Assembly: GCA_030625815.1 (NCBI GenBank)
Contig: DAOUQF010000013.1
Span: forward strand, 1 to 64,000
Reading direction: 5' to 3'
Length of the DNA stretch: 64,000 bases
Source of the DNA: Eubacteriales bacterium
Lineage (GTDB): Bacteria > Bacillota > Clostridia > Tissierellales > GPF-1
Both the position numbers and the translations under genes were made by a program. Shown here one piece after another: positions 49,608 through 63,812 of the stretch (positions are counted from its first letter, which is position 1; every line of letters begins with the position of its first letter). The notes beneath the pieces were generated by a model. That model saw only the letters and a list, made by a program, of their open reading frames with translations. It had not been told where the DNA came from and made no database searches.

Positions 49608-50865
49608 AAGTCACCGTTCTCCTTTCAAGTCGTATACCGGATCGATACAGATCGCCCACCAAAGCGAGGGTCGCGACACCTGCATATAAGAATAGTATAT
49701 AGCTTGGAAGCACATCCGACAAATATCCGTGAAGCAAGAAACCCAATGGAGAAATCAACATCGCAATCATATTTAAAAATCCCATGACGCGACCGCGATT
49801 TTCATCTTCCGTATTCTTTTGAATATATACCATCATTGGAATGTTGATCGCCATAATACTCGCCCCCATGGAGAAGGCAAGAATCCCATAGTATACAACC
49901 GGCGGAATCACATTTAGAATTTCAATGCCCGGAATGACGGCAAATCCCATGGCCAGTGTCAAAAGCGGCAGCCAAATCAATTTTTTCGAATACCCAAGGA
50001 GAGTCACGTCCGCATCCTCTTGCCGGCTCATTTTAATCGACCAGATCAAGGCACCAATGGAGAACAAGGCTTCTGTAATGCCAAATTGCCGGCTTGAAAG
50101 CTGCAAATCCCGTACCAGAACAACTGGAATCATAATCCCGATCACCGTAAAGAAAAAATTAATTCCGATAATATTTCGAATCATTGCCTTCATCATAGGG
50201 TTCTTCGCCATATATCCATAGCCTTCCTTGATGGAAGCAAAATATCCGTGTTCCTCCTCTTCCTTTGGTTTTGCCGGGGCAACGCGCCAGTAAAAATCAA
50301 TAAACATTTCTGAAATTCCCGAACAAACAAAAGAGATTCCATTCGCCAACAAGAAGAGTTGCGGTGAGATCATCGCATATAAAACCGCGCCAAAAATTGG
50401 TCCTAATATGCTGGTTCCCTGCGTCGCGGCTTGAGAAAGCGATTGAATCTGACCGATTTTTTCCTCTCGAACCAGATTGGGCATTGCCGCATCAAAGGTA
50501 ACATTGAAAAAAACACTGACACTGCGCAAAAGGAAGGTAGAAAGATAAACCAGGCTCACTTTTAATCCCACATTCATGGTAACCGCAAAGACGATCAACA
50601 TAATCACACCGCTTAGAAGATCAGTGCCAACCACAATTTTTTTCCGGTTTTTCCGATCAGCAAGCGATCCTGCAAGAGGAGAAAAGATGATCGCTGGAAT
50701 CGTAGAAAGCAGGATATTAATTGCAAAACTCATCCCGGATCCTGTTAACTGTAATATGTAAAGCCCCATTGCAAATCCATACATCTGTGATCCCAAAAGG
50801 GAAACGAATTTGCCTGATAAGAATAGACCCAAATTTCTTCTTTCCATTCTTTGATCTTGGTTCAT
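49579..50865 (-). CDS. MFS exporter (MFS_3/EntS-like), copy 1
   Basis: A 428-residue 12-helix transporter of the type common for macrolide, drug or siderophore efflux: N-terminal LGLFLSGKFVSLLGSQMYGFAMGLYIL pattern, LAGSLADRKNRKKIVVGTDLLSG near residue 65 (loop 2-3). Its nearest relative in the window is the gene at 51006-52295 with the same opening (SGKLVSLLGTKMFSFAMGLYIL). Start ATG 50865 follows GGGAG. It precedes and overlaps the ArsR gene. Substrate unknown. Confidence 0.85.
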   Translation of the reverse strand: MNQDQRMERRNLGLFLSGKFVSLLGSQMYGFAMGLYILQLTGSGMSFAINILLSTIPAIIFSPLAGSLADRKNRKKIVVGTDLLSGVIMLIVFAVTMNVGLKVSLVYLSTFLLRSVSVFFNVTFDAAMPNLVREEKIGQIQSLSQAATQGTSILGPIFGAVLYAMISPQLFLLANGISFVCSGISEMFIDFYWRVAPAKPKEEEEHGYFASIKEGYGYMAKNPMMKAMIRNIIGINFFFTVIGIMIPVVLVRDLQLSSRQFGITEALFSIGALIWSIKMSRQEDADVTLLGYSKKLIWLPLLTLAMGFAVIPGIEILNVIPPVVYYGILAFSMGASIMAINIPMMVYIQKNTEDENRGRVMGFLNMIAMLISPLGFLLHGYLSDVLPSYILFLYAGVATLALVGDLYRSGIRLERRTVTYEPKIETEI

Positions 50866-50889
50866 GGTTTTCTCCCATCTAACTTTTTA

Positions 50890-50944
50890 TTTGTTAGAAT
50901 TAAATCTAACAAACTCAGTATATCATCGTTTTTGATCATGTCAA
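50890..50944 (-). promoter_or_regulatory. Promoter and ArsR-type operator of the MFS-arsR operon
   Basis: On the minus strand -35 TTGACA (50939-50944), 16-bp spacer, -10 TATACT (50917-50922). Directly downstream, covering the start point, is a 9-bp perfect palindrome TTTGTTAGA-N6-TCTAACAAA (50890-50913). Extra GTTAGA half-sites lie nearby in the leader and around 50965. The winged-helix regulator encoded in the operon is the likely repressor. Confidence 0.7.
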
Positions 50945-57041: not shown

Positions 57042-58199
57042 ATGATTATCTTTCATATTGATGTAAACTCCGCTTACCTCAGCTGGCAAGCGGCTTATGA
57101 ACTCGAAAACGGAAGCGCCCGCGACCTGCGCACCCTTCCTTCCATTATCGGCGGCGATCAGGCCAAACGCCACGGCATTGTACTGGCCAAATCCCTCCCC
57201 GCTAAAAAACAGGGGATCATTACGGGCGAATCCCTGATGGAAGCCCGACTCAAGTGCCCCAGCCTCCTGGTGATCCCGCCTAACTATCAATTATTTGCTC
57301 AATGCAGTGAAGCCATGTACGAGTTGCTGCTGGAATATTCACCTCACGTGCAACGCTACTCCGTGGATGAATGCTTTTTGGACTATACGGCGTCTCAGCG
57401 CCTATTCGGAGACCCTGAGGAAACGGCTCACACCATCCGCAACCGCATCAAGGAGGAATTAGGGTTCACCGTCAACATTGGAATCTCCTCCAATAAGTTA
57501 TTGGCTAAAATGGGCGGCGAACTGCAAAAACCCGATCAGGTCCATACCCTGTTTCCCGCCGAGGTCGCGGAAAAAATGTGGCCCCTGCCTGTAGGCGATC
57601 TCTTTATGGTGGGCCGCGCCACAAGAAAAAAACTCAAGCGCCTCAATATTCAAACCATCGGGGCATTGGCAAATAGCGAGCCAGCCTTCCTGCGGCTTCA
57701 CTTCAAAAGCTACGGCACCCTCCTTTGGCAATACGCCAACGGCATCGACGACAGTTTCGTCCGCGAATCCAATTTCCCCGCGCAAAAGGGCGTGGGGAAC
57801 AGCACCACCATTTCCTTCGATGTGACGGACCGCAAAGAAGCGCTCTTGGTGCTTCTGTCCCTCACCGAAAAGGTAGCCATCCGCATGCGAAGGAAAAAGG
57901 CTCTCGGGCAGGTGGTGGCCATCTCCATCAAGAGTTTTCAATTGGAGCGAGTCAGTCATCAGCGCCGGCTACCTCACCCCTGTCAGTCCACCCGCGCCCT
58001 CTATGAGGTGGTGGAATCTCTTTTCGATACCTACGATCGCGAAAAGGACGCCACCCTTGATGCAACCATGGACAGAATCCGAAAACGGTACGGAGAAAAA
58101 ATTCTAATTCGCGGCTGTTTTCCCCACAGCGGAATCAAATCCATTCAGGGCGGTGTCGCCGAAAACGATGATTATCCGATTATGACCAGTCTCTTATAG
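57042..58199 (+). CDS. dinB: Y-family DNA polymerase IV-like protein
   Basis: A 385-residue translesion polymerase: MIIFHIDVNSAYLSW start with the first catalytic Asp (residue 6), YSVDECFLDYT near residue 105 with the Asp-Glu pair, GISSNKLLAKMGGELQKP near residue 149, HhH thumb and little-finger domains. It is more like the UmuC/DinB branch of Clostridia than E. coli Pol IV (it has a longer N-terminal YELENGSARDLRTLPSIIGGD loop). The LexA box makes it SOS-induced. Start ATG 57042 follows GAAGGTG; the longer frame from 56988 covers the promoter. Confidence 0.92.
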   Translation: MIIFHIDVNSAYLSWQAAYELENGSARDLRTLPSIIGGDQAKRHGIVLAKSLPAKKQGIITGESLMEARLKCPSLLVIPPNYQLFAQCSEAMYELLLEYSPHVQRYSVDECFLDYTASQRLFGDPEETAHTIRNRIKEELGFTVNIGISSNKLLAKMGGELQKPDQVHTLFPAEVAEKMWPLPVGDLFMVGRATRKKLKRLNIQTIGALANSEPAFLRLHFKSYGTLLWQYANGIDDSFVRESNFPAQKGVGNSTTISFDVTDRKEALLVLLSLTEKVAIRMRRKKALGQVVAISIKSFQLERVSHQRRLPHPCQSTRALYEVVESLFDTYDREKDATLDATMDRIRKRYGEKILIRGCFPHSGIKSIQGGVAENDDYPIMTSLL

Positions 58200-58212: not shown

Positions 58213-58476
58213 ATGCGCATTGTTTCCAAGCCCATCGAAATGATCGCTTGGTTCCCCACAAAGAACCAACCGCGACCGCTTCGTTTCCGAATCCAGCAAC
58301 CCGATGAATCCTATAAAGTTGTGCAAGTCCACCGCGTCCAAGAAGTGCGAAAGGAACGCCTTGCCGGCATCGACTCCTTTGTTTTTCGATGCGAAAGCGA
58401 AGTGAACGGCCACCTGCAGCTCTACGAGCTCAAATACCTGATTCGAGAATGCCGCTGGCTGCTCTATAAAATGTAA
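58213..58476 (+). CDS. Small dinB-partner protein, unknown
   Basis: An 87-residue soluble basic protein starting MRIVSKPIEMIAWF and ending CRWLLYKM. It starts 13 nt after dinB with AAAGGAGG, so it shares the LexA-controlled transcript. I recall similar small genes beside dinB in other Clostridia, but no named family; it does not look like YolD. A role as a polymerase accessory or SOS-response factor is inference. Its last 20 residues are repeated as a fragment at 62391-62453 with only silent differences. Confidence 0.75.
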   Translation: MRIVSKPIEMIAWFPTKNQPRPLRFRIQQPDESYKVVQVHRVQEVRKERLAGIDSFVFRCESEVNGHLQLYELKYLIRECRWLLYKM

Positions 58477-58512
58477 ACAGGGATGCATGCCCATCGGCAT
58501 GCATCCCTGTTT
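58475..58512. terminator. Terminator after the dinB operon
   Basis: A perfect 17-bp stem AAACAGGGATGCATGCC with a CATC loop; T-rich 3' end on both strands. Confidence 0.88.
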
Positions 58513-58549
58513 ATCCGTTATTCTTTTCTCACTTTGCACGCTTCGCCGA

Positions 58550-58660
58550 TTAAAAAGTTCCCGGTGCAGGCGCTTTCACTACAATCAATTCCAACAAGGC
58601 ATCATCCTTGTTGCCCACATTCATCTTGGTCTGAACCGGAATTTTCAACACCGTTCCTGT
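58550..58660 (-). pseudogene. Cupin gene remnant
   Basis: The minus strand encodes TVLKIPVQTKMNVGNKDD then LIVVKAPAPGTF-stop, matching the C-terminal third of the intact cupin gene at 62524-62841. Upstream it jumps straight to the promoter-side sequence with no start codon. Two deletions explain this by comparison with the intact copy: one between two GGTTCC repeats and one between two TTCG repeats. Confidence 0.8.
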
Positions 58661-58714
58661 TCGTCATCTTTTCTTCCTCATTCTTTGAATCCCTGAAGTA
58701 TATAAAAAAACAAA

Positions 58715-58740
58715 AGAAAAAAGTGTTACCGAAGTAACAC
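58715..58740 (-). terminator. Terminator of the opuC operon
   Basis: On the minus strand GTGTTAC-TTCG-GTAACAC followed by a T run. The same hairpin ends the EamA gene at 62899-62916. Confidence 0.88.
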
Positions 58741-58749
58741 TTTCTTTTC

Positions 58750-59649
58750 TTATTCCGTAATCAGTCCCGCATTTACCAAGAACTCATGGGCAACGTCTTC
58801 AATCGGAGTCTTCTCCACATCAACATTATAATTCAATTGCTGCATGGCTGCCTCGTCCATGATCTGATCCAACTTTTGCAATTCCGCTACCACTTCCGGA
58901 TACTCCAGATAACTTTCTCCATTCATAATTGGTGCCACATAATATGGCGGGAAGAAGTTTTTATCGTCTTCCATAATCACCAAATCATATTCAAGAATTT
59001 TTCCATCCGTCGAAAATGCATCAATAATATCCGTTTGTCCTGATTTTATCGTTTCATAGCGAAGCCCGGGATCAATACCCAGTTCTTCTTTGAATTTAAA
59101 ATCTTTATAGTGTTTTTTGATGCCTGGAAGTCCATCCTCCCGAGCCAAGAATTCAACGGTTGCCGTAAATCGCAATTCATCAGCAACCTCAATCATCTCC
59201 GAAACCGTTTTTATATTATACTGCTCGGCAACTTCTCTTCGAATTGAGAATGTATAGGTATTGTTGTATCCCAAATCCGGCAACCATTCGACATCAAATT
59301 GCTCTTTGTATTCCTTTACGACATAGTCATATACCGCTTGCGGATCCTTTAATTCGTTTTGAGCAAGAATCGCCCCGTAGGCCGTCCCTGTATATTCTGG
59401 ATAAACATCGACTTCTCGCGCCTTCAAAGCCTCGAAAACAATGCTCGTACCACCAAATTCTGTAAGTTCAGTCGTATAGTCCGTATTCGCTTCAATTAAT
59501 TGCGCAAAGATTTGTCCTAAGATTCGAGCTTCCGTATAGTTTTTAGTTCCCACCTTGATCACTTTAGCATCCGCATCCGTTCCACCGGAGCAACCTGACA
59601 AGACCAACGCCACCGCTAAAAATACAATCATTACTATTCTTTTTTTCAT
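58750..59649 (-). CDS. Osmoprotectant ABC transporter, substrate-binding lipoprotein (OpuCC-like)
   Basis: A 299-residue solute-binding protein of the OpuAC/ProX type for glycine betaine, carnitine or choline: lipobox LSGC at residues 17-20, VIKVGTKNYTEARILGQI near residue 30, FGGTSIVFEALKAREVDVYPEYTGTAYG near residue 65. Tyr and Trp residues for a betaine cage are present, but binding specificity is not certain. Starts immediately after the permease stop. Third gene of the ATPase-permease-binding protein operon. Confidence 0.9.
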   Translation of the reverse strand: MKKRIVMIVFLAVALVLSGCSGGTDADAKVIKVGTKNYTEARILGQIFAQLIEANTDYTTELTEFGGTSIVFEALKAREVDVYPEYTGTAYGAILAQNELKDPQAVYDYVVKEYKEQFDVEWLPDLGYNNTYTFSIRREVAEQYNIKTVSEMIEVADELRFTATVEFLAREDGLPGIKKHYKDFKFKEELGIDPGLRYETIKSGQTDIIDAFSTDGKILEYDLVIMEDDKNFFPPYYVAPIMNGESYLEYPEVVAELQKLDQIMDEAAMQQLNYNVDVEKTPIEDVAHEFLVNAGLITE

Positions 59650-60291
59650 TTATTCTTCCCCCTTCAAACCCTTTGGTGTAAGTTTCACTTCAACAAAATT
59701 TAATAGCGCGTCCATAACCAACGCCAGCAACGCAGTTGGAATTGCACCTGTAAGAATCATCATATTGTCTGCCATTGAAATTCCTCGGAAAATGAAATCA
59801 CCAAGACCACCGGCGCCAATCAAAGCCGCAATCGTCGCTGTACCAATATTGATAACGGTCGAAATCCGAATTCCTCCCATAATCATGGGAAGCGATAATG
59901 GCACTTCGATCATTTTCAAAATCTGCATCCTTGTCATGCCCATTCCACGGCCCGCCTCAATCACGGCTGCATCTACCGTTGTAATGCCGATATAGGTGTT
60001 TTTAATAATTGGCATTAATGCATACAGCAACAAGACAAATACCGAAGGCTTGAATCCAATTCCCATAATCGGAATAATCAAACCGAACAACGCCAGACTT
60101 GGAATCGTCTGCATAATATTGGCGACTCCCAACACAAAACCGGCAATATTTTGTTTCTTTGAAATCCAAATCCCAATGGGAACCCCAATCAAAATAGCAA
60201 ATGCTACAGCAATTCCCGTAATTTTCATATGCTGGATCAACGCACCGAAAATATCTTCGGCATGCGCCACCATAAATCGAATCAACTCCAT
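59650..60291 (-). CDS. Osmoprotectant ABC transporter, permease (OpuCB-like)
   Basis: A 213-residue permease with about six helices and the ABC permease loop EAGRGMGMTRMQILKMIEVPLSLPMIMGG near residue 112 that contacts the ATPase. It shares one base with the end of opuCA (TGATG) and its stop abuts the binding-protein start. Only one permease is seen, so it probably acts as a homodimer, unlike OpuC of Bacillus with OpuCB and OpuCD. Confidence 0.9.
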   Translation of the reverse strand: MELIRFMVAHAEDIFGALIQHMKITGIAVAFAILIGVPIGIWISKKQNIAGFVLGVANIMQTIPSLALFGLIIPIMGIGFKPSVFVLLLYALMPIIKNTYIGITTVDAAVIEAGRGMGMTRMQILKMIEVPLSLPMIMGGIRISTVINIGTATIAALIGAGGLGDFIFRGISMADNMMILTGAIPTALLALVMDALLNFVEVKLTPKGLKGEE

Positions 60292-61439
60292 CAGTCCTCA
60301 TCCCCCTCTTCTTCATATTCAGAAACGAGGTCTGCCAATACATCCAAAACACTGGACTGCGTTACAACACCTACCATCTTCTCCTCATCATCGACAACCA
60401 CCAAACGATTGGCTTCCGTTTCCTTCATCAAAGCCAACACATTGGGAAGATTCTCTGTTTCATGTACGGCCTGAATCTCTACCTTCACCAAATCTCGCAA
60501 GATTTTTTCTTCCGCTTTCTGGCCACGCAATTGGTTGATATGAATCCAGCCCAATGGTACCTGCTGCTGTTTCCCTTCTTTTTCCACGACAATCGCCCGT
60601 CTAATTCCACGCGATTTCATAATTTCAAAAGCCTGCAAGCCGCGACGACGCGCGCCGATGACTTCCACTTTTCGATTCATAATGTCTTTGGCATACATCA
60701 TCTCAGGCAATTTCCACAAACGGTCTTTGCCCACGAAGTTTTCTACATAATCGTTAACCGGATGTTTTAAAATTCGCTCCGGTGTATCAAATTGCAGAAT
60801 TTTGCCATCTTTCATGACGGCAATTTTATCGCCAATCTTTAAAGCCTCATCCATATCATGGGTAACGAACACAATGGTCTTGCCCAACTCATCCTGCAAT
60901 TTCAGCAACTCCCGCTGCAATTGTTCCCGCGTCATTGGATCCAACGCAGAAAACGGCTCATCCATCAGAATCACATCCGGATTGGTCGCCAAGGCCCGGG
61001 CAACGCCAATTCGCTGTTGCTGCCCCCCGGACAATTCATGAGCGTAACGGTGATAATAGGATTTATCCAAATCCACCAATTCCAGTAATTCCAATGCGCG
61101 CAACCGACGCTTCTTTTTGTCCCAATTCAACAGCTTGGGTACCAGCTCAATATTTTCCCCGATGGTAATATGTGGGAGCAAACCAACCTTCTGAATCACG
61201 TACCCAATTTTTCTTCGCAACTCCACCGGACTATAGTCCATAATGGATTTCCCATCAAACAAAATTTCTCCGTCGCTCATAGGGATAAGCCGGTTGATCA
61301 TCTTCATACTTGTCGTTTTCCCACAACCACTCTCACCAATCAGGACAATAATCTGCCCTTTTTCAATCTTCAAATTCAGTCGATCCACTACAATCGTCTT
61401 TTGATCATAGGTTTTCACGACGTTTTTTAATTCAATCAT
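60291..61439 (-). CDS. Osmoprotectant ABC transporter, ATPase with CBS domains (OpuCA-like)
   Basis: A 382-residue ATPase: Walker A GESGCGKTTS near residue 37, signature LSGGQQQRIGVARAL near residue 137, Walker B VILMDEPFSALDP near residue 157 and His in FVTHDMDEA near residue 193. The C-terminal 130 residues are two CBS domains, typical of OpuA/OpuC ATPases, which sense ionic strength or c-di-AMP. Start ATG 61439 follows GGAGG five nt upstream; a GTG at 61445 is too close. First gene of the operon, with an operator-like repeat over its promoter. Confidence 0.93.
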   Translation of the reverse strand: MIELKNVVKTYDQKTIVVDRLNLKIEKGQIIVLIGESGCGKTTSMKMINRLIPMSDGEILFDGKSIMDYSPVELRRKIGYVIQKVGLLPHITIGENIELVPKLLNWDKKKRRLRALELLELVDLDKSYYHRYAHELSGGQQQRIGVARALATNPDVILMDEPFSALDPMTREQLQRELLKLQDELGKTIVFVTHDMDEALKIGDKIAVMKDGKILQFDTPERILKHPVNDYVENFVGKDRLWKLPEMMYAKDIMNRKVEVIGARRRGLQAFEIMKSRGIRRAIVVEKEGKQQQVPLGWIHINQLRGQKAEEKILRDLVKVEIQAVHETENLPNVLALMKETEANRLVVVDDEEKMVGVVTQSSVLDVLADLVSEYEEEGDED

Positions 61440-61460
61440 GTGCACCTCCGTTTTTCAACA

Positions 61461-61498
61461 ACAACTTAAGCTTATCACACAAGTTGTTTTTTTGTCAA
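61461..61498 (-). promoter_or_regulatory. Promoter and operator of the opuC operon
   Basis: On the minus strand -35 TTGACA (61493-61498) with a weak -10 about 17 bp downstream. An inverted repeat ACAACTT-N13-AAGTTGT (61461-61487) covers the spacer and -10. The BusR-like gene upstream is a plausible repressor. Confidence 0.6.
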
Positions 61499-61528
61499 AG
61501 ATATTAAGAACTCCGTTTATTAGTAAAA

Positions 61529-61558
61529 CAAAAAAACAACCTATAAAATAAGTTGTTT
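61529..61558 (-). terminator. Terminator of the BusR-like gene
   Basis: On the minus strand AAACAACTT / AGGTTGTTT with a 7-nt loop then a T run. Its arms resemble the ACAACTT operator arms, so it may also bind the regulator. Confidence 0.65.
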
Positions 61559-62173
61559 TTATTTTATATATTCAACTAATTTTTCTTCCGCCTCTCGGCT
61601 TCCAACGGCAAAAATAATATCCTCTTCGCAAAAATTATAATTCGGACCCGGCGACAAAATCATTTGCCCGCGGGTGCTGACCGCCGCCACCGTCACACCG
61701 GTTTTCTGCCAAATTCGAAGGGCGCTAATTGTTTGACCAATAAAATGAGAACCCTGAGAAATTTCAATTTCATAAGGCTGCACCACTTGAATCGATCGAT
61801 AGCGCTCCGCATAATCGACCAACCTGGCGACCAATTCCTTCTGTCTGACATCCAAATTCCGGCGGGTTTCATCCAGCTTGCGCATTTCCTGCAACAACAT
61901 GCGAATTGATTCCCTCTCCCGGAATTTTTCAACAAAGGCTAATGCATTCGCCTTGCTGTGGATCACAATCCCCCAGCCTGAAGACACTTCAATCACTTTC
62001 ATTTCTTCCAGAAGGCGCAAAGCCCGCCGGATCGTTTCCGTAGACACGCCATACTGGCTCGCCAATGTAGAGCGTCCGCGAATTTTCTCTTTTTCCTGAT
62101 ATTCTCCCGACACAATTTTGCTCGCAATATCTGTTGCAATAGCAATATATCGTACCTTTAACATTTTTGACAT
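61559..62173 (-). CDS. BusR-like GntR/RCK_C regulator
   Basis: A 204-residue regulator: N-terminal YtrA/GntR winged helix (SGEYQEKEKIRGRSTLASQYGVSTETIRRALRLLEEMKVI), a coiled coil of about residues 80-120 (RESIRMLLQEMRKLDETRRNLDVRQKEL) and a C-terminal RCK_C (TrkA-C) domain (GQTISALRIWQKTGVTVAAVSTRG). BusR of streptococci and lactococci has exactly this order and represses the busAB betaine transporter when bound to c-di-AMP. Its place just upstream of an opuC operon supports the same job: osmotic and c-di-AMP control of osmolyte uptake. Two adjacent ATGs; 62173 chosen for spacing. Confidence 0.85.
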   Translation of the reverse strand: MSKMLKVRYIAIATDIASKIVSGEYQEKEKIRGRSTLASQYGVSTETIRRALRLLEEMKVIEVSSGWGIVIHSKANALAFVEKFRERESIRMLLQEMRKLDETRRNLDVRQKELVARLVDYAERYRSIQVVQPYEIEISQGSHFIGQTISALRIWQKTGVTVAAVSTRGQMILSPGPNYNFCEEDIIFAVGSREAEEKLVEYIK

Positions 62174-62264
62174 CATCTCACCCTACTTTTTTATTACTCT
62201 AAGAATATCAGATTTCGAACAACTTCAGCAACTAAAATGTTTTTTGCCGAATCATTTTCTTCGT

Positions 62265-62396
62265 CTTTTCCAATTCCTGCGATTGTCGTTTCGTCACCGC
62301 AAATCCTTTTTTGCTACCTCCTAGATAAATTCCCGCTGCAATGTTCGCCAATAAAAACCGGTAAAACACCACGGATACCGTCGGCATGCCCTGCAG
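62265..62396 (-). pseudogene. Fragment of an EamA transporter gene
   Basis: About 44 codons on the minus strand read LQGMPTVSVVFYRFLLAN-IAAGIYLGGSKKGFAVTKRQ, close to residues 24-60 of the intact EamA gene at 62916-63812 (LQGMPTVSVVFYRFLLAH-LAIGIYLLASKKGLRVTKRQ). At the DNA level it is roughly three-quarters identical. It has no start and no further homology. Its end joins the next fragment at CTGCAG, a sequence shared by both partners. Confidence 0.8.
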
Positions 62397-62453
62397 CTTT
62401 ACGAGCTCAAATACTTGATTCGAGAATGCCGCTGGCTGCTCTATAAAATGTAA
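62391..62453 (+). pseudogene. Fragment of the dinB-partner gene
   Basis: Encodes the last 20 residues (LQLYELKYLIRECRWLLYKM) and stop of the protein at 58213-58476, with two silent differences in 63 bases. The remainder of the gene is absent; upstream comes EamA-like sequence. The near identity points to a recent duplication, or to selection on the protein in an intact copy elsewhere. Confidence 0.85.
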
Positions 62454-62487
62454 AAAGGATGCATGCCAATTGGCATGCATCCTTTTT
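62452..62487. terminator. Terminator between partner-gene fragment and cupin
   Basis: A perfect 16-bp stem AAAAAGGATGCATGCC with an AATT loop and T tails on both strands. Confidence 0.88.
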
Positions 62488-62523
62488 ACATTCTTTTTGT
62501 TCTTCCTTCGCACTCTCCGCTGA

Positions 62524-62841
62524 TTAAAAAGTTCCCGGTGCCGGCGCCTTTACGACAATCAATTCCAATAAGTCATCGTCCTTGTTTCCTACATTCATCT
62601 TTGTTTGATACGGAATCTTCAATACGGTTCCCGCCTCATAAGGATGCGGTTCCTGTTCGCCAAGCTGAATCGTCAATCGACCCTTCACCACGGTCATATA
62701 CACCATAGAATTGGAAAAATGCTCCGGCAACCCTTCCCCTTTATTGAATAACATATGAATATAATGAACATTATCATCTTGAATCAACTTTTCAACCGCT
62801 TTTTCATTTCCCGTTGAATATTTAAAAATTTGCTCTATCAT
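62524..62841 (-). CDS. Small cupin-domain protein
   Basis: A 105-residue single-domain cupin. HMLFNKGEGLPEHFSNSMVYMTVVKG (about residues 28-53) and PHPYEAGTVLKIP (about residues 66-78) fit the two cupin motifs; the metal ligands may be His, Glu and His, though the first motif is H-x-F rather than the usual HxH. The function of such small cupins is not predictable. Start 62841 or 62844 (ATGATG) follows AAGGAGG; I prefer the second ATG for spacing. A decayed copy lies at 58550-58660. Confidence 0.75.
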   Translation of the reverse strand: MIEQIFKYSTGNEKAVEKLIQDDNVHYIHMLFNKGEGLPEHFSNSMVYMTVVKGRLTIQLGEQEPHPYEAGTVLKIPYQTKMNVGNKDDDLLELIVVKAPAPGTF

Positions 62842-62884
62842 CATTCGTCCTCCTTATCCTATGAATACCCTTAGTATAAGAAAA

Positions 62885-62916
62885 GAAAAAAGAAAGAAGT
62901 GTTACCGAAGTAACAC
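62885..62916 (-). terminator. Terminator of the EamA gene
   Basis: On the minus strand GTGTTAC-TTCG-GTAACAC then a T-rich run; overlaps the EamA stop codon. Confidence 0.85.
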
Positions 62917-63812
62917 TATCCCATTGATTTTTTCATTTTTAAAACCTGCTTTTTCTCAGCCGCACCATCGAAAGCAATGCAGACAACCGCCAAAAAGATT
63001 GCCATGCAGCCCAATCCTGAGCGAAAATCCAACCGTTCTCCATAGACAACCATCCCGGAAACCATCCCCACAACGGGCTCCAGCATGTTGATCATAGATG
63101 CCTTCGTCGCACCAATGGTTTTGATTCCATAGGTCAACAGCAAAAGCGCAAAGACTGTTGACACCTGCGAGATAAAGAGCAGATCGCCCCATGCCCGTAC
63201 ATTCGAAGGAACTACCAACTGTCCCTTCCAAATCGCCTGTAATCCAAAGAAAACCACTGATACCAAAGTAACATAAAAGAGAATCTGAGGGGCCGGCAAC
63301 TCCCGCAAGCTCGTTTCCCGATTGCCGATTACATAGACCGCGTAAGTAATCCCAGACAATACCGCCCAGGTAATCCCTTTAACAGATAATCCGCCGCTCA
63401 AGTCCATCAAAAGTACCAATCCAATCACCGCCGAGATCACAGCAAGCCACTTCATCCCGGAAGCTTTTTCATGAAAAACGCCTATCATCAACAAAACAAC
63501 AAAAATCGGATAGGTGAAATGAAACATGGTAGCCAAGCCTACCGGTAAGGTTTCATAGGAACTAGCCAGAAAAAAGGCCGTCAAACCAAATCCAGCCACA
63601 CCCAAAACAACAAGATCCCTCAATTGCCGCTTTGTTACACGCAATCCTTTTTTACTTGCCAGCAAATAAATGCCGATTGCAAGATGCGCCAGTAGAAATC
63701 GGTAAAACACCACTGATACCGTCGGCATGCCCTGCAAAATCAAATCCTTTGTAAAAACCGGCATAATTCCATAAGCAATGGATGCCAATCCTACCGCTAT
63801 TATTCCCTTCAT
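62916..63812 (-). CDS. EamA/DMT-family transporter
   Basis: A 298-residue drug/metabolite transporter with ten predicted helices in two EamA halves (GMPTVSVVFYRFLLAHLAIGIYL near residue 27; ATKASMINMLEPVVGMVSGMVVYGERLD near residue 235). Such proteins move metabolites or drugs, usually outward; substrate unknown. Start ATG 63812 has only a distant GAGGG. A fragment of a related gene at 62265-62396 shows there was once a second copy. Confidence 0.85.
   Translation of the reverse strand: MKGIIAVGLASIAYGIMPVFTKDLILQGMPTVSVVFYRFLLAHLAIGIYLLASKKGLRVTKRQLRDLVVLGVAGFGLTAFFLASSYETLPVGLATMFHFTYPIFVVLLMIGVFHEKASGMKWLAVISAVIGLVLLMDLSGGLSVKGITWAVLSGITYAVYVIGNRETSLRELPAPQILFYVTLVSVVFFGLQAIWKGQLVVPSNVRAWGDLLFISQVSTVFALLLLTYGIKTIGATKASMINMLEPVVGMVSGMVVYGERLDFRSGLGCMAIFLAVVCIAFDGAAEKKQVLKMKKSMG

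Follow-up and report, generated by a model that had tools for sequence, protein, structure and literature searches.

BusR combines an N-terminal GntR-type HTH domain with a C-terminal RCK_C/TrkA_C domain and is encoded beside an osmolyte importer, BusAB. With c-di-AMP bound, BusR occupies its operator and represses (PMC8517857), and this c-di-AMP-dependent binding takes place at paired GAC motifs 22 bp apart (PMC8517857). ABC importers of the OpuC/ProU type, which take up glycine betaine, choline or carnitine, consist of an OpuAC-domain binding protein, a ProV-type ATPase with a CBS domain, and ProW/ChoW-like permeases, for which classical OpuC has two genes (OpuCB and OpuCD). Here, we describe a locus in which genes of both kinds lie between two direct copies of a short segment, and we weigh how this arrangement may have come about.

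The locus is located in a stretch of 64,000 nt, called the window hereafter. Its regulator gene (61559-62176, reverse strand) encodes the winged HTH and RCK_C domains of the BusR subfamily (Pfam GntR and TrkA_C), and the predicted protein aligns with BusR along its whole length (PDB 7b5t, E 9e-31, residues 3-203). While BusR is known from beside BusAB, the regulator here adjoins a three-gene importer on the same strand, made up of a substrate-binding protein (58750-59649; Pfam OpuAC, 6e-62), a permease (59650-60291; Pfam BPD_transp_1, with NCBIfam ProW/ChoW below cut-off) and an ATPase with a C-terminal CBS domain (60291-61439; Pfam ABC_tran and CBS, with NCBIfam proV above cut-off at 399 bits). 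An OpuAC-type binding protein and a CBS-bearing ATPase are shared with OpuC. However, there is one permease gene in the operon instead of two, and the importer is therefore named OpuC/ProU-like only. Judged by its predicted domains, the whole is an ordinary BusR-type regulated osmolyte uptake operon (opuC-busR).

Two genes on the forward strand precede the operon: dinB (57042-58199), a Y-family DNA polymerase IV-like gene recognized by Pfam IMS/IMS_C and by comparison with two congeners (G001 and G002), and, downstream of it, a complete small gene for 87 aa (58213-58476). The small gene has no family match in Pfam or NCBIfam; homologues of its protein are found at 95% amino acid identity in G002, at 93% in G001, and at ~40-50% in many genomes of the order. 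The dinB gene of the window lacks 30 aa (DEAWTG...QPFEQLSLF) at 58017-58027 that both congeners have, an in-frame deletion bounded by short repeats of TTCGAT. Its last residues, QLSLF, look like a beta-clamp-binding motif, and the polymerase of the window may be inactive or clamp-independent.

The original prediction held that a segment comprising the end of the small gene, a hairpin, a cupin gene and a second hairpin occurs twice in the same direction around the opuC-like genes and the BusR-like regulator. Alignment of the two segments shows this duplication to be real. Copy 1 (58414-58744) and copy 2 (62391-62920) have the same direction and an offset of ~3976 nt, and they align in four blocks that span 81-96% identity. 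The first block, 69 nt at the end of the small gene (the dinB-partner gene), is 96% identical (58413-58481/62390-62458), with the remaining blocks at 81-83%: a long hairpin (58476-58511/62452-62487; 83%), 137 nt of the cupin 3′ part (58521-58657/62495-62631; 82%) and the cupin promoter with the upstream terminator (58672-58744/62848-62920; 81%). The longest exact run common to both copies is 39 nt. When copy 2 is used to query the whole genome, copy 1 is matched at E 7e-72 and 5e-13, and the segment occurs nowhere beyond the two copies, apart from self-matches of the palindromic hairpins to the opposite strand. The hairpins between small gene and cupin (hairpin 1, 58476-58511, resembles a convergent terminator) fold with z-scores of -9.7 and -10.5 relative to shuffled sequences, the terminators with -6.6 and -3.7; all look like convergent or intergenic terminators. 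A search for plasmid matches returned no match, and an Rfam search no family.

The two copies differ in what they contain. Copy 1 runs from the 3′ end of the complete small gene through hairpin 1 to a cupin pseudogene (cupin 1; 58550-58669, reverse strand), its promoter and its terminator. Aligned to the intact cupin 1 of G002, this pseudogene retains the C-terminal 34 codons in frame and the start region, with ~200 nt deleted. In copy 2, the final 66 nt of the small gene are followed by hairpin 2, an intact 106-aa cupin (cupin 2; 62524-62844, reverse strand), a promoter and a terminator, so that one cupin is broken and one is whole, as had been foreseen. Cupin 2 is 90% identical at the amino acid level to the cupin of G002 and 93% to that of G001, and it matches Pfam Cupin_2 at 8e-6, slightly under the gathering score. 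Copy 2 is flanked by sequences of an EamA transporter, also on the reverse strand. An intact gene (EamA copy 2; 62916-63812, Pfam EamA) lies beyond the cupin, and a fragment of copy 1 of the gene with an open frame (62275-62395), which shares 75% identity with the intact EamA at 63616-63736, lies on the side of busR. The fragment meets the small-gene tail at CCTGCA (62390-62395), a sequence common to EamA and the small gene, in keeping with the proposal that the two were joined by microhomology.

To place these copies in a wider context, the window was compared with stretches of the genomes of the two congeners, giving three genomes of the genus. In G002, the order is dinB, small gene, hairpin, intact cupin, terminator, opuC, busR, EamA remnant, a mannose-type PTS operon and an intact EamA; cupin 1 is kept, and the locus contains no second cupin. 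In G001, the order is dinB, small gene, hairpin, opuC, busR, ~150 nt, hairpin, intact cupin, terminator and EamA; cupin 2 is kept, and cupin 1 is absent. The operon thus occupies the same place in 3/3 species, and exactly one full cupin is present per genome, at the copy-1 site in G002 and at the copy-2 site in G001 and the window. EamA remnants of differing extent adjoin busR in the window and in G002, where the full EamA lies ~6.6 kb beyond the remnant.

Further differences between the genomes were observed along the way. The ~150 nt before cupin 2 in G001 (C1:751640-751805) is a remnant with no Pfam family and nothing else similar in the three genomes. In G002, ~700 nt is inserted between opuCA and busR (L026 5667-6361), and this insert includes an ORF for 87 aa without a clear family assignment. 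The PTS operon of G002, which comes with a LevR-like regulator between the EamA remnant and the full EamA in direct order (C80:70597-77336), occupies the position that cupin 2 has in the window and G001; the same site gained another operon with similar duplicated edges.

Flanking direct repeats with a 39-nt identical run could mark the operon as a recombinationally active module, excised or amplified through its repeats, as the original prediction suggested. That prediction also named the observation that would speak against it, namely relatives in which the operon occupies this place but the repeats are missing, and both congeners fit that description. The operon is kept in 3/3 species, two of them without the repeat pair, excision or amplification is seen in neither relative, and there is no second copy of the regulator or of the cupin segment elsewhere in the genome. 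An active module is therefore very improbable, and there is no sign of a role of the repeats in the operon. The same repeats might also suggest a composite-transposon-like or phage-borne insertion of opuC-busR. As anticipated, no transposase was found in or between the repeats, judged by the ORFs and Pfam matches of the segment and its contents, and the genes of the segment include no integrase either. Since the repeats are moreover ordinary gene ends without terminal inverted repeats of their own, such an insertion is hardly conceivable.

The age of the duplication was addressed by counting informative sites separately for the left flank, the cupin 3′ part and the promoter/terminator, counts that are small in each case. 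In the promoter/terminator, the sites split 8:1:1, the majority uniting copy 1 of the window with cupin 1 of G002, and copy 2 of the window with cupin 2 of G001. As 8/10 sites pair the copies across species, the duplication predates these species, and two promoter/terminator copies most likely existed before the species split. The sites of the cupin 3′ part (3:0:2) agree weakly with this grouping. Between the cupin 1 remnant and cupin 2, there are 13 synonymous and two nonsynonymous codons, with 13/16 changes at third positions. This codon pattern rules out decay as the source of the divergence between the cupins; both cupins were under selection for long, with copy 1 diverging as a working gene and breaking late. 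The EamA fragment, whose reading frame is also open, differs by 13 synonymous and 10 nonsynonymous codons, which suggests a similar but looser history.

These results bear on the idea that a recent illegitimate tandem duplication in the lineage of the window was followed by decay of the copies in complementary ways. The CCTGCA join and the small-gene tail are private to the window, in neither congener, and the microhomology at the join is what such an event would leave. However, the orthology pattern (8:1:1) and the synonymous-biased divergence of cupin 1 both argue against it, and in the cupin part the copies are 15-19% divergent, similar to the divergence between species. As an account of the locus, a recent duplication is accordingly quite improbable: it is contradicted for the cupin, although it could still apply to just the 66-nt tail and the hairpin. 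Instead of complementary decay, the copies appear to be paralogues older than the species split, of which cupin 1 was selected until recently.

The left end (62391-62522) of copy 2, which comprises the small-gene tail, hairpin and spacer, has a different ancestry from the cupin of this copy. It is 94% identical to the flank between small gene and cupin 1 of G002 and 84% to copy 1 of the window, compared with only 57%, over the alignable part, to the flank of cupin 2 in G001. The left-flank sites likewise split 5:1:0 in favor of pairing window copy 2 with G002, and window copy 1 with G001. In contrast, the cupin body of copy 2 is 85-89% identical to G001 and 82-85% to G002. The hairpin and spacer of window copy 1 are themselves divergent (73% to copy 2, 69% to G002), which is unexpected and not predicted by a simple within-lineage duplication. 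Loss of the small gene from copy 2, as originally proposed, is disfavored: no small-gene tail is recognizable before cupin 2 in G001, and the tail in the window groups with copy-1-type sequence. The 66-nt tail and hairpin are probably a later patch of copy-1-type sequence, making copy 2 a mosaic.

Exchange between species offers another route to such a mosaic. A tract within the intact EamA (63087-63587) is ~97% identical to G002, compared with an average of 85.5% outside the locus, suggestive of sequence exchange between these lineages at this locus; a second, similar tract lies near 50450-50900. Both tracts are likely the result of recent recombination between species. The whole arrangement might therefore be an import, in which a relative's version of the locus recombined beside the resident one, the copies being xenologues joined by homologous recombination. 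The 94% identity of the left flank of copy 2 to G002 and the two tracts of high identity (in EamA and near 50600) would fit this, as would opuCA-busR of the window being closer to G001 though its flanks are closer to G002. On the other hand, each promoter/terminator copy has its orthologue in a different species, at the matching one of the two positions. The two-copy state therefore seems common to the species and not peculiar to the window, which would leave import to account for no more than the left patch and a part of EamA. As an explanation of the locus as a whole, we consider import unlikely, though the least so of the alternatives to an ancient duplication.

The best reading, to which we assign a probability of roughly 0.66, is an ancient duplication with opuC-busR between the copies, followed by later recombination and reciprocal loss. 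The genus ancestor would have carried the cupin with its promoter and terminator, probably together with its EamA neighbor, twice in direct order, with the opuC-busR operon between cupin 1 and EamA copy 1. Both cupins would have remained functional for long while diverging, and the copies would have been reshuffled by homologous recombination, partly between species. In the window, a copy-1-type patch (small-gene tail, hairpin and spacer) would have been joined to EamA copy 1 at CCTGCA, forming the left end of copy 2; it may have arrived by duplication of a ~4-kb unit and subsequent deletion between the cupins, or by import from a relative, and either route would yield the gene order observed. 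One cupin would then have been lost per lineage, with G002 losing cupin 2, G001 losing cupin 1 and the window breaking cupin 1, while EamA copy 1 was reduced to remnants and the operon stayed in place. Of this sequence of events, the data show the two ancestral copies of the promoter/terminator, the single intact cupin of each species at differing positions, the mosaic nature of copy 2 and the selection on cupin 1 until late. Whether the duplication or the gain of the operon came first, that EamA was duplicated as part of one unit with the cupin, and how precisely the join at CCTGCA arose are our reconstruction.

An empty site, in which small gene, cupin and EamA adjoin without opuC, was not seen in the three genomes of the genus. 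EamA of this type (E<=1e-50) was found only in the genus. The outgroup search covered cupin relatives in 27 named contigs, G002 among them, and in 50 of the 391 genomes that represent the class. Among the cupin neighborhoods read outside the genus, none contained EamA or a small gene next to the cupin; adjacency of cupin and EamA, or of small gene and cupin, was met outside the genus in one distant MAG only, with a gap of 2 kb.

The small cupin could work together with the osmolyte module instead of being a bystander, which we regard as doubtful. One intact cupin lies directly beside opuC-busR in 3/3 species, and it is not always the same copy. In Anaerotalea alkaliphila, an alkaliphile from a different lineage, a cupin (70% identical), a BusR-like regulator and three importer genes have the same order and strand as here, the only case of cupin-busR-opuC outside the genus among the loci inspected. 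Its BusR is only 36% identical, and no dinB, small gene or EamA is nearby. There, a lysine 2,3-aminomutase/acetyltransferase-like gene pair precedes the cupin, busR and opuC in one run (L042 7747-14064), an apparent osmoprotectant island; genes of this kind make N-acetyl-beta-lysine. No BusR-like gene was found beside a cupin in the other named contigs outside the genus or in the other loci of the class inspected (1.5-kb flanks), and relatives of opuC in other orders often have busR nearby, with no cupin except in A. alkaliphila. That each of the three species has one cupin, and that the arrangement recurs in A. alkaliphila, provides one weak lead to the function of this cupin family.

The locus is a product of ordinary genome evolution, by duplication, insertion and reciprocal loss. 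It offers a small, clean example of how a seemingly repeat-flanked module can be the residue of reciprocally lost ancestral duplicates, patched by recombination, and a warning that mobility or amplification should not be read from flanking direct repeats in a single genome. We found nothing directly applicable in the literature on bacterial microhomology duplications. The closest parallel is tandem duplication with reciprocal (divergent) loss, with which the locus shares two ancestral copies in direct order, the keeping of different copies, and remnants or deletions at the lost ones. It differs in having an unrelated operon between the copies, and in the mosaic nature of the copy that survives in the window.
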